A stretch of 41,196 nt of DNA from a virus. Of the stretch, positions 26,857 through 35,255 are shown piece by piece. The notes beneath the pieces are model-generated. The model worked only from the letters and a program-made list of their open reading frames with translations, was not told the DNA's origin and did no database searches. Position 1 is the stretch's first letter; each line of letters starts with the position of its first letter. The stretch covers positions 1-41,196 of the IMG/VR virus record IMGVR_UViG_3300005577_000015; one strand, given 5' to 3'. A program made the translations under genes and the position numbers.

Positions 26857-27219
26857 TCAACCCTTTGAAAACGTGAACCACTCGACCTTGCCGCGCTTCA
26901 CATCGTCCCGGCCGTCGCACGGATGCGCCTCGCACCAATCCGGCGACGACAGGCACACCCAATGTCCCCCTTCGCCGCGACACCACTCGCAGTCCCAGCC
27001 GTCGCCTTCGTCGGCCTGCCAATCGTCATCTTCGATCCAGCCTTCGCCGCCGCAGTTGTCGCAATCCTCGAACGACATCGACGACCCGCACCGCGCACAC
27101 TGACAGTCCCATTCGCGGCCATCGCGCGGACACTTCCCAATGACGCGCGTAATCGTCGGTTCGGGCGCACGCTCAGACTGGCCTGATGGCGGATGCGAGT
27201 TAACTGACCTTGCGCGCAA
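26857..27219 (-). CDS. Cysteine-rich zinc protein (120 aa)
   Basis: Starts at TTG 27219, overlapping the end of the replication gene by 20 bases. It has at least ten Cys: CPRDGREWDCQCARCGSSMS, CDNCGGEGWIEDDD, CEWCRGEGGHWVC and later EWCEAH-like ends. The CxxCxGxG units are as in the zinc domain of DnaJ and in many small phage zinc proteins. It probably binds DNA or a protein near the replication origin. Nucleic-acid binding is inferred only from the family pattern. Confidence 0.68.
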   Translation of the reverse strand: MRARSVNSHPPSGQSERAPEPTITRVIGKCPRDGREWDCQCARCGSSMSFEDCDNCGGEGWIEDDDWQADEGDGWDCEWCRGEGGHWVCLSSPDWCEAHPCDGRDDVKRGKVEWFTFSKG

Positions 27220-28135
27220 TCGTCGCGATGCACTCGTCCCAGTCGTCGTGCGGCGGATCGTGCGGACAGTAGCCGATCCGACGCAGGATGGTTTCCGCGT
27301 CCGCGATCGCCCGGCGACTGAGGCGGGACGCGGGTTGCGCCACCCACGCCTGAAACTTCCCCTTCCAGTAGGTATAGAGGTTGCCGATGGACTCCGTGGC
27401 CGGGAGCTGCGCCTGGTCGGCGGCGTAGAAGGCGATCAGCCGGCCGGCTTTCTCGGCGCGCGTTTCCCCGGGCACGGTCCCCAGCTGATCGAGCAATTCG
27501 AAATGGAGATCCCGCGGCACATGGGCGCGCCCCTCGCACCAGGCGTGCCGGTAGGGATGCTCGCACCGCGGCGGCGCCGGTTGGCCGAGTAGTGGCAGGT
27601 CCGCCTCGCGCGCGCGCGTAGTGTGAGTGTGTACGTTAGATCCGGTACCCAGAATTGGAGGCTCAATTTGAGCCTCTAACCCCCCCCTTTGAGGCTCATT
27701 ATGAGCCTCTACCTTTCCTTGAGGCTCAGAATGAGCCTCTAACTCGGACAGGTCGAGGACGGTGCTGAGGCTCACTTGCTGCTCCTTCGGCGGCGACGCC
27801 GCCAGTAAGTCGACCTGGATGTCATACCCGGTCGCCTGCCGATGCCCGCGGACGCACACGACGATGAGTGGCCCGCCCGATCGCTGGGGATCGCGCAGAT
27901 CCGCTAAGGTTCGCGTCACCGTCGCGCGCGAGACCTTCGCCAGCGCGGCGAGCGTGGCCGTGTACGCCCGACAGTGCCGGCCCGTCTTCCACTCCCCGCG
28001 CGACCAGAGGGCGCTCAGCACTTTGGCTTCCGTCGCCGTCAGCTGGCCGGCCGCGTTCGACCAGGTGATGCGCTCCGCGATCGTGCCGTGATACGCGGTC
28101 ACGGCTCGGCGACGCGACGCAGCGTTCGAAACCAC
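27200..28135 (-). CDS. Replication initiator, lambda-O-like with internal origin (311 aa)
   Basis: Residues 30-110 form a winged-helix domain (LTATEAKVLSALWSRGEWK, then AALAKVSRATVTRTLADLRD). A linker (130-160) is encoded by the iterons and so repeats LEAHSEPQ / VEAHNEPQ / LEAQIEP. The C-terminal half, from EHPYRHAWCEGRAHVPRDLH to IADAETILRRIGYCPHD, is helical and could recruit host helicase or helicase loader. The design of a DNA-binding N-terminus, origin in the middle of the gene and loader-binding C-terminus is that of lambda O and related proteins. No DnaB or DnaC homologue is coded, so the phage must use the host's. Confidence 0.8.
   Translation of the reverse strand: MVSNAASRRRAVTAYHGTIAERITWSNAAGQLTATEAKVLSALWSRGEWKTGRHCRAYTATLAALAKVSRATVTRTLADLRDPQRSGGPLIVVCVRGHRQATGYDIQVDLLAASPPKEQQVSLSTVLDLSELEAHSEPQGKVEAHNEPQRGGLEAQIEPPILGTGSNVHTHTTRAREADLPLLGQPAPPRCEHPYRHAWCEGRAHVPRDLHFELLDQLGTVPGETRAEKAGRLIAFYAADQAQLPATESIGNLYTYWKGKFQAWVAQPASRLSRRAIADAETILRRIGYCPHDPPHDDWDECIATIARKVS
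27658..27774. repeat. Three palindromic iterons and a half-site: probable replication origin
   Basis: The 19-bp palindrome GAGGCTCA-N3-TGAGCCTC occurs at 27658-27676, 27691-27709 and 27721-27739, with perfect 8-bp arms in each and different middle bases. Starts are 33 and 30 bp apart, about three helical turns. A half-site GAGGCTCA lies at 27767-27774. The repeats are inside the initiator gene, in frame with its linker. Pyrimidine- or purine-rich stretches (27680-27690, 27711-27720) separate them. This is the arrangement of a lambda-type origin. Confidence 0.85.
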
Positions 28136-28401
28136 ACCGACAGCGGCTTGATTCTCGGTTTATCGTTCGGGCATCCTGAAGGCAGCACGGTCGTCTTTCT
28201 GGCCCAGCAGAGTTTCTCTTTGATGGCCCGGACGAACTTGCGCGCATCGGCTGCGCGAAATTCCGGCACCGTCTCGGGACCGTCCGGACCATCGACCCAA
28301 CCGACGAACCACGGCACGGGATAGCCGCGCGCATCAACCGGCAGCTTCGCGATGCGCGGCGGCAAGAGGCCGAGTTCAGGCCGCACGTGGGTTGTCAGCA
28401 T
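28099..28401 (-). CDS. Hypothetical protein, possibly truncated (100 aa)
   Basis: The start is ATG 28401 behind a strong GGAGGA site. Residues 12-68 (PPRIAKLPVDARGYPVPWFV, then RAADARKFVRAIKEKLCW) resemble, from memory, a phage family in which the Trp is followed by VCG and a cysteine-bearing second half. Here, after CW, the sequence turns into an unrelated basic tail and stops. It overlaps the start of the replication gene by 37 bases. It may be a shortened gene whose 3' end was replaced. Confidence 0.65.
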   Translation of the reverse strand: MLTTHVRPELGLLPPRIAKLPVDARGYPVPWFVGWVDGPDGPETVPEFRAADARKFVRAIKEKLCWARKTTVLPSGCPNDKPRIKPLSVWFRTLRRVAEP

Positions 28402-28857: not shown

Positions 28858-29120
28858 GGGGCAATTCCTGCGATCCGCCAGACTGAAGGATCCTGAAGGT
28901 CCTGCGTCAGCGCGTCGAGCGCCTGGATCTGGCCGACGATCCAGCGGGCCTCGGGGGCGCCGATCGCCTGTCGGCCCCGGGGCGTGATCGAAAAGCGCGG
29001 CATCGGATCATCCTCGGCCCACTCGACGGCCGCTAACCCGTCGCGCAACAAGCGGTTCAAGTCCGCCAACAGGTCGGTCCCCGCGTCCGATCCGCTAGTT
29101 AACATAAGATTCGTTATCAT
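28854..29120 (-). CDS. Small winged-helix-like protein (88 aa)
   Basis: ATG 29120 overlaps the previous stop as ATGA. Residues 18-55 (LLADLNRLLRDGLAAVEWAE, then PRFSITPRGRQAI) match the last helix and wing of a winged-helix domain, where a strand pair with TPRGR is usual. The recognition part seems short, so DNA binding is not certain. A helix (WIVGQIQALDALTQDL) follows. Confidence 0.65.
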   Translation of the reverse strand: MITNLMLTSGSDAGTDLLADLNRLLRDGLAAVEWAEDDPMPRFSITPRGRQAIGAPEARWIVGQIQALDALTQDLQDPSVWRIAGIAP

Positions 29121-29515
29121 CGGACGCGCCGCCGATTGTCGGCCCGATTCGCCGCGGTTTCGCTTTGCGATCGCAAACCGTACACGGGGGGGCGAAAGCG
29201 GGTCGCCTGGCCCCGTCGCCGGTACAGCCCAAAGAGCGCCAGTTGCCGGGGCTGGCTCCGCGCCTTCAGCATCCGGGGCTTCACCAGCGTCAGGACGGCC
29301 TTCGCGCGCACCGCGGCGAGCTCGAGGACGTCGTCCTGCCGGAACAGGTACGCGCCCCGCAGCGTCCGCTCGGCGACGAGCGTGCCCGCGCGCACGAGGT
29401 TCCGGACGGCCTGCCCGGTGAGGTGCAGCACGCGTCGGGCGTCGGTCGTCGTGAGCTTGGGGGGATCCGCACTGCGCGGCCAGGAGAACGCCTCTGGTAG
29501 ACTCTGGTTTTGCAT
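29117..29515 (-). CDS. HTH DNA-binding protein (132 aa)
   Basis: Residues 20-70 have the MerR/excisionase helix-turn-helix pattern: KLTTTDARRVLHLTGQAVRN, then LVRAGTLVAERTLRGAYLFR and QDDVLELAAVRA. The C-terminal third is strongly basic (RYRRRG-like, many Arg) and could add DNA contacts. Start is ATG 29515. It may be an early regulator or act in excision. The 87 bp after its start side, 29516-29602, hold no gene. Confidence 0.72.
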   Translation of the reverse strand: MQNQSLPEAFSWPRSADPPKLTTTDARRVLHLTGQAVRNLVRAGTLVAERTLRGAYLFRQDDVLELAAVRAKAVLTLVKPRMLKARSQPRQLALFGLYRRRGQATRFRPPVYGLRSQSETAANRADNRRRVR

Positions 29516-31013: not shown

Positions 31014-32062
31014 GTGGCTGACAGAAAACGGCAGTTCGGCATCGTCCGCACGTCTCGCGACGGGACCTGGGTCGGCTATCGGGCCTTCGTCCGGATCGCG
31101 CCCGGCCCGGGTGGCCTCAAGAGCAAACGCTATCCCCGGACTGCCACGCTCACCGAGATGAAGGCGTGGCGCGAGTCGGTCCGCGTGAGCGCGCGCGAGC
31201 AGCCGAAGCCCGTACCCTCCGCGCGTGGCACGCTCGGCGCCGACATCGATCACTATCTGAAACTCGTCGCCACGATGCCGACCATCAAGGACCGGACGCG
31301 GGATCTGACGGCCTGGAAAGCCGTGCTCGGCATGCGCCCGCGCCCGAAGCTCACCCGCGACGATTACCGGCTCGTGCTCCAGGAGTGGAAGCTGACCGGC
31401 CGCCAGGGGAAACCGTTAGCGGCGTCGACCGTCAATCATCGCCGGACCGCGATGATGCACCTGTACACGACGCTCGACGGCAAGGGCGCGCCGAACCCGT
31501 GGCGCGAGATCAAACCATTCGTCGAGCCGCCCGCCGAACCGCGGGACCTCGGGATTGAGACCGCCCGCGCGATTCTCGCGGCGCTAAAGGTGTCGAAGAC
31601 GCGGGCGCGGATCAACGTGCTCGCGTGGACCGGGTTGCGCGGCAATTCCGAGCTCGGGAAGATGAAACCGGAGTACGTCGACCTGGCGCACGCGGAATGC
31701 TGGGCGCCCACCGGGAAGCAAGGCCAGCCGCGGCTGATCGTGCTCAATGCCGACGGCGTCGAGGCCTGGCGCGAGTTCGCGTACCTGAACGCCTGGGGCA
31801 CCTATTCGAAGGACAGCCTGCGGCGATCGTTCCACCGGGCCGTCGCGATCGTGAACGTGGAGCGCGGCAAGCGCGGCCTGGCCCCCTTGCGCCAGGTCCG
31901 CGTCTACGATCTGCGCCATACGATCGCCACCGCGTTGCGGCGCGCCGGCGCCGACCTCGCAGATATCCAAGCGCACCTCGGCCACACGTCGCCGCGGATG
32001 ACGCAGCGGTACGCGCCGTTCCAATCGGACAAGTTGCGGAAGGCGATCGGGTCGCTGGGGGC

Positions 32063-32078
<16 letters not shown>
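31014..32078 (+). CDS. int: Tyrosine-family phage integrase (354 aa)
   Basis: GTG 31014. Residues 1-65 are an arm-binding-like N-terminus (YRAFVRIAPGPGGLKSKRYP), 75-170 the SAM-like core-binding domain, and 175-354 the catalytic domain. The catalytic set reads Arg209 in AWTGLRGNSELG, Lys235 in PTGKQGQPR, Arg301 in RVYDLRHTIAT, His324 in LGHTSPRMTQRY and the nucleophile Tyr333. The usual His of the H-x-x-R motif is Tyr298 here. It integrates the phage at attP, which lies 85 bp downstream, into a host tRNA-Asp gene. The stop codon is itself part of a palindromic putative arm site. Confidence 0.92.
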
Positions 32079-34574: not shown

Positions 34575-35255
34575 ATGGCGCTCAGCTTGGTGCCCGTCGG
34601 CCACGCGTTCACGGTGATCGACGCGCCGCAGCGATCGCCGGCGTGGGCGGCGGCGCGGCTCGGGCGGCTCACGAGCTCGCGCGCCAGTGACATGTTGGCG
34701 GTCATCAAATCGGGCGAAGCGGCCGGGCGGCGCAACCTGCGCGTGCAGCTCGCGCTTGAGCGGATCACCGGCCAGGCGCAGGCGCCCACGTTTCAATCCG
34801 CCGCGATGCTGCAGGGGATCGAGCGCGAAGCCGAAGCGGCGGGGCTCTATGAGGCCCTGACCGGCACCCTACTGCGGTCGACGGGCTTTCTGCAGCACGG
34901 CTCGCTGATGGTCGGCGCGTCCTTGGACGGCCACGTCGGCGACTTCGCCGGCGTCGTCGAACTGAAATGCCCGATCGCCGCGACGCATCTCGAATACCTG
35001 ACGACCGGCCAGATCCCCGGCGACTACCGCAAACAAGTCGTGCATCAACTGTTCGTGTCGGGCGCGCGCTGGTGTGATTGGCTGTCCTACTGTCCGGAGT
35101 TTCCGATCGGGCTGCAGGTCAAACTCGTCCGCGTCGAACGGAACGATCAGGAGATCGCGAGCTACGCGTTGGCGGCGGCGTTGTTTCTGAAAGAGGTCGA
35201 CGCGGCCGTCGCGGCGATCACGGGGTTACAGGCGGACGTACGCGAGGTGGCCTAA
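34575..35255 (+). CDS. YqaJ / lambda-exo type recombination exonuclease (226 aa)
   Basis: This PD-(D/E)XK nuclease has the YqaJ order. PAWAAARLGRLTSSRASDM opens it. AMLQGIEREAEAAGLYEALT holds the Glu at about 83. SLMVGASLDGHVGDFAGVVE carries Asp118, followed by Glu129-x-Lys131 (VELKCP). RKQVVHQLFVSGARWCDWLS supplies the later Gln157. It makes 3' single-strand tails for the ERF protein. The gene begins two bases after erf and its stop overlaps the next start. Confidence 0.92.
   Translation: MALSLVPVGHAFTVIDAPQRSPAWAAARLGRLTSSRASDMLAVIKSGEAAGRRNLRVQLALERITGQAQAPTFQSAAMLQGIEREAEAAGLYEALTGTLLRSTGFLQHGSLMVGASLDGHVGDFAGVVELKCPIAATHLEYLTTGQIPGDYRKQVVHQLFVSGARWCDWLSYCPEFPIGLQVKLVRVERNDQEIASYALAAALFLKEVDAAVAAITGLQADVREVA

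Follow-up and report, generated by a model that had tools for sequence, protein, structure and literature searches.

Palindromic sites inside a winged-helix gene of a temperate phage: a probable replication origin and a likely one-residue recognition code

The window, an IMG/VR record of 41,196 bp, is a temperate tailed phage. It encodes a large terminase, a portal protein (phrog_156), and a coat protein (phrog_283), together with an integrase (31014–32078) and an excisionase-like gene (29117–29515), and no tRNAs were found in it. A YqaJ-type viral recombinase gene is located at 34575–35255 (PF09588, E 1.3e-19). The putative initiator gene studied here is an ORF of 311 codons on the minus strand (27200–28135, ORF start GTG 28135). 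Its true start is probably GTG 28102 (gene 27200–28102), because this codon forms a GTGA overlap with the stop of the upstream ORF and the relatives begin at about this residue (MTYKPSIAERI). The overlapping ORF (28099–28401), to which no function was assigned, is arranged in a way that suggests translational coupling with the initiator.

AlphaFold predicts three parts in the protein (P0001), all encoded on the minus strand. A winged helix-turn-helix domain (residues 19–110, 27806–28081) has MarR-like helices and a wing, with pLDDT mostly about 80–94 within residues 19–126; its recognition helix, SRATVTRTLADL (27896–27931), contains Thr74 (27914–27916), the residue referred to below as X. It is followed by a linker predicted to be disordered (residues 121–202, 27530–27775) and by a C-terminal helical domain (residues 208–310, 27204–27514), which is presumably the partner-binding part. 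Against Pfam HTH_36 (PF13730), the protein scores 15.3 bits, below the cut-off of 25, which the relatives L010 (42.7 bits) and L023 (27.1 bits) pass. Pfam gave no match to Phage_rep_O (PF04492), none to RepA_N (PF06970) up to E 5, and no C-terminal DnaA_N (PF11638), and the PHROG match to 'replication initiation protein' was weak (E 0.009). Among named phages, no close relatives of the window protein, L094, or L055 were found; searches of solved structures by sequence returned nothing useful, and those by fold returned generic MarR-like winged helices only, none below E 0.001.

Within the linker-coding DNA lie three perfect 19-bp palindromes of the form GAGGCTCA-N3-TGAGCCTC, which in gene order are GAGGCTCATTCTGAGCCTC on the coding strand (27721–27739), GAGGCTCATAATGAGCCTC (27691–27709), and GAGGCTCAAATTGAGCCTC (27658–27676). 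Their starts are 33 and 30 bp apart, and they are translated from the minus strand as EAHSEPQ, EAHNEPQ, and EAQIEPP. The original prediction had described three perfect palindromes with this spacing inside the gene, each giving a repeated peptide, and they are found exactly where it placed them. With up to three mismatches allowed, three matches were observed versus 0.16 expected, and none of 100 shuffles reached three; no further copy was found elsewhere in the 41,196-bp phage genome. The original prediction had extended the region to 27774, which is explained by a lone half-site, GAGGCTCA, on the plus strand (27767–27774). The function of this half-site is doubtful: it is retained in L004 but missing from L023 and L070, and is therefore probably not a working site.

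The sites are conserved as DNA and not as peptide. Given the peptide and the codon usage of the phage, the codon choice within the palindromes has a joint probability of 1.5e-15, and in 3000 resamplings of synonymous codons the number of 8-3-8 palindromes was at most one, versus the three observed. In this phage, whose GC content is 68%, GCT accounts for 1.3% of Ala codons and CCT for 1.8% of Pro codons; nevertheless, both are used in all three repeats. Sliding codon adaptation falls from about 0.7–0.9 to about 0.11 between roughly 27,745 and 27,620, a dip that spans the three sites, enters the tract that follows them, and occurs only there. The original prediction had proposed selection on both the DNA and the linker. 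The former part is borne out by the codon choice, the adaptation dip, the concerted changes in relatives, and the use of different reading frames described below, whereas the case for selection at the level of the linker peptide is weaker than had been claimed, with residues 121–202 predicted to be disordered and the peptide varying freely while the palindrome survives.

Beyond the last palindrome, a largely alternating purine/pyrimidine tract, ACGTACACACTCACACTACGCGCGCGCGCG, occupies 27607–27636 and includes the rare codons GTA (0.7%) and ACT (1.0%). A CA/CG tract after the sites is kept in seven of the eight clan members, L011 retaining just GTACGTACGTAC, and it is always on the same side of the sites. 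No AT-rich tract lies beside the sites of the window; the least stable 50-mer lies on the sites themselves, with the conserved CA/CG tract next to it. The tract at 27607–27636 is a possible unwinding or Z-DNA element.

Seven distinct relatives in IMG/VR (L004, L023, L010, L011, L070, L133, and L140; the L138 protein is identical to that of L133) carry three or four tandem palindromes in the same place. In any one gene, every copy is altered, and in both arms alike, so that palindromy is kept. The window, L004, L023, L010, and L011 share the GGCTCA class (peptide EAxxEP in the window), while the palindrome is GTCTCA in L070 (ESxxET), TTGCTCA or ATGCTCA in L133 (DAxxEQ), and GGATCA in L140, where GGATCA-N3-TGATCC occurs four times at positions 485–600 of the initiator ORF (EDxxDP). 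Two of these proteins have a DnaA domain I (PF11638) at the C-terminus, namely the initiators of L010 (8265–9374, E 1.1e-8) and L133 (7701–8909, E 1.7e-7). The presence of this domain, which in DnaA helps recruit DnaB, is a strong pointer to replication initiation. In these two initiators, the end presumed to recruit the helicase has been exchanged as a module.

Viral contigs were scanned for two or three tandem copies of CTCA-N3-TGAG with free or G, T, C, or A flanks, and bacterial and archaeal genomes with the G flank only, the T-, C-, and A-flank scans being confined to viral contigs. The scans repeatedly found genes in which a winged-helix domain is soon followed by the sites: of 191 loci whose ORF bears the repeats, 72 have a winged helix, a count in which some loci are included more than once. 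The remaining loci were mainly coding repeats, REP-like elements, and spurious ORFs. Matches that lack a preceding winged helix, namely single sites in unrelated genes, REP-like CCTCATCCTGAGG elements, and repetitive coding repeats, were set aside as unrelated. Collapsing at 60% identity left 45 winged-helix clusters, 44 of them with an unambiguous flank. In 24 of the 44, the sites of a single gene occupy two different reading frames, and no site uses the remaining frame, in which TGA would be in phase. The phages and prophages with this design are very diverse, with matches in genomes of Proteobacteria, Actinobacteria, Chloroflexi, and Planctomycetes and hosts that include Labrys, Streptomyces, Gemmataceae, and Chloroflexaceae.

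Two further sets of dyads were observed. At L061, L092, L120, and L123, no long ORF covers the CTCA-N3-TGAG dyads (GACACTCAATTTGAGGGTC type), which occur there as three tandem copies and may be operators or a different kind of origin. Among HTH_36 genes of bacterial genomes chosen regardless of repeats, four also bear tandem dyads after the winged helix: L354 (GCAGA-N-TCTGC, five copies), L357 (GGGAA-N5-TTCCC, four), L362 (CGGAA-N5-TTCCG, three), and L327 (GCAAA-N-TTTGC, three). Since their cores differ, these dyads neither test nor break the rule described next.

Residue X of the recognition helix, S-x-A-T-V-X-R, predicts the base just outside CTCA. With a G flank, X is Lys, Arg, or Thr in 21 of 22 clusters; with a T flank, it is aromatic (Phe or Tyr) or His in 13 of 16; and with a C flank, it is Glu, Asp, or Gln in all six. 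The rule holds in 40 of the 44 clusters, whereas the maximum over 200,000 shuffles was 30, with none reaching 40, and X versus this base has the highest mutual information of 42 helix-by-base pairs (z 11.4). Such shuffles ignore phylogeny, a concern that identity-threshold checks lessen without removing: when each single-linkage cluster at 35% identity was represented by one gene, the agreement was 0.93 versus 0.37 expected. The residue classes were defined after the first table, and the rule was noted ahead of the scans with T, C, and A flanks (the T class then being Ala, Tyr, Phe, His, or Asn); of the 16 new clusters that these later scans gave, 14 obey it. The two misses, L157 (Cys) and L206 (Asp), have a T flank. 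Beyond the CTCA core, L140 (GGATCA) and Erwinia phage PEp14 (AGGGCA), in both of which X is Lys, likewise have G at this position. No winged-helix gene with A as its main flank appeared in the scans, and L064 is half A and half G. The chemistry of the presumed contacts would be sensible, with a basic side chain facing G, an acidic or amide one facing C, and an aromatic one facing the thymine methyl. The co-variation of X with the palindrome base is strong evidence, at the level of sequence, that the winged helix binds the sites in its own gene.

We consider it likely that initiators of this winged-helix class carry their own sites in coding DNA, with one residue reading one base pair by rule. 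If so, each gene would be a natural, self-contained protein–DNA pair; since both partners sit in one gene, matched pairs would be obtained from sequence alone, and a recognition code for the winged-helix class, phage origins, and incompatibility groups would become readable in the same manner. Such a code would permit origin prediction in uncultured phages and would explain how origin specificity can change in them without loss of function. We provisionally regard the code as newly described; our search of the open-access literature found lambda/Stx and repABC precedents and no description of this initiator family or code.

We hold with good confidence that the window protein is a lambda-O-like replication initiator whose linker-coding DNA serves as the origin. 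The assignment of a replication function derives from the DnaA domain I fusions in two relatives, the O-like annotation of homologues, and the lambda ori plan. Homologues are annotated as 'DNA replication protein O', and O-like genes adjoin helicase genes in AF, NIIg9.7, and TRS1; among the tested neighboring ORFs of the window gene, no helicase, P-like loader, or primase was recognized. In the proposed mechanism, a winged-helix dimer would occupy each palindromic iteron, the DNA would be bent or opened by it at the adjacent, easily distorted tract, and DnaB helicase of the host (or host DnaA) would be brought in through the C-terminal part. Each of these steps, like origin activity itself, is inferred. 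GC skew over the whole window lends the origin at the palindromes no support: the original prediction had expected a minimum near 27.7 kb, but this is absent, the cumulative skew peaking near 22–23 kb and then declining through the palindrome region without a turning point.

The palindromes might instead be operators, to which a winged-helix repressor binds within its own gene, perhaps blocking transcription, while replication starts elsewhere. The MarR-like fold and the annotation of some homologues as 'transcriptional repressor' (Laroye gp88) fit this explanation, and the helix code supports binding equally in either case. However, the sites lie about 360–445 bp into the gene, away from the position of a promoter, and have no other copy in the phage genome. 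Furthermore, a repressor would account poorly for the DnaA domain I fusions of relatives, for a conserved CA/CG tract that is always on the same side, and for homologues with O-like annotation and helicase neighbors. We therefore consider a repressor unlikely.

It is far less probable that the sites are an origin bound by host DnaA or another protein in place of the winged helix. DnaA domain I in relatives ties the family to DnaA biology, but the sites are unlike DnaA boxes, and they vary in sequence along with the recognition helix encoded by the gene that contains them. Action in the mRNA as three stem-loops, for regulation, stability, or as an antisense target, is disfavored and carries a similarly slight probability. 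Each site can fold into a hairpin whose stem has 8 bp and whose loop has 3 bases (z −6.3 versus shuffles), but any DNA palindrome folds likewise. Just outside the core, G-U pairs are not preferred to mismatches: there are 0 G-U of 163 at the first pair (a result that the scans partly impose) and nine G-U versus 18 mismatches at the second; moreover, the loop bases are not conserved, an Rfam search gave no match, and hairpins would leave the co-variation with a DNA-reading helix unexplained. Finally, that the repeat is a protein feature of which the palindromes are a mere consequence can be dismissed as a sole cause, for although all three window sites share one frame and give similar peptides, it is refuted by the codon choice (p 1.5e-15), the occurrence of the same DNA in two reading frames within 24 of the 44 genes, and the joint changes of residues that keep palindromy, in a linker that is predicted to be disordered.

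An origin inside the initiator gene is the textbook arrangement of lambda. As in the window, the lambda O gene contains tandem dyad iterons distal to the DNA-binding domain, with arms about a 3-bp center and an almost identical core, CTCA-N3-(T/C)GAG (iteron 1 is TCCCTCA-AAA-CGAGGGA); its iterons, too, are spread over different frames (0, 2, 2, 1). The two differ in that the window has perfect palindromes 30–33 bp apart, compared with 20–24 bp in lambda, and GG outside CTCA where lambda has CC; in addition, the tract of the window is CA/CG-rich and not AT-rich, no P-like loader was found, and the winged helix is not detectably homologous to lambda O (hhalign probability 5%). A published lambdoid case is a close precedent: the binding unit of its iterons, which lie inside the O gene, is an imperfect inverted repeat of 19 bp, an AT-rich tract adjoins them, and silent iteron mutations abolish replication of a lambdoid plasmid (PMC7466680). 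In repABC plasmids, the origin likewise lies within an initiator gene, repC, and is abolished by silent mutations (PMC3155836); unlike the window, these are plasmids and not phages, with an A+T-rich region and no reported iterons.

Given that it has neither a PF04492 match nor a convincing profile match, the window protein is placed outside the lambda O family, although by analogy it would work as lambda O and ori do. By homology through its relatives, it belongs to the HTH_36-type O-like phage initiators. The O-like initiators of SfII-type coliphages have a homologous winged helix (SfII profile probability 98.6%; BLAST E 4e-3 from L010). Repeated dyads occur in initiators of this type from Erwinia phage PEp14 (GGGCA-N3-TGCCC, three copies) and Arthrobacter phage Laroye (GGCCCG-N4-CGGGCC, four copies), which differ from the window in palindrome sequence; at the threshold used, repeated perfect dyads were not seen in SfII, AF, TRS1, and others. 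Within the clan, L010 and L133 differ from the window protein in possessing DnaA domain I. The lambda-type plan of an origin within the initiator gene recurs in initiators that are not of the lambda family, here with the site family CTCA-N3-TGAG.
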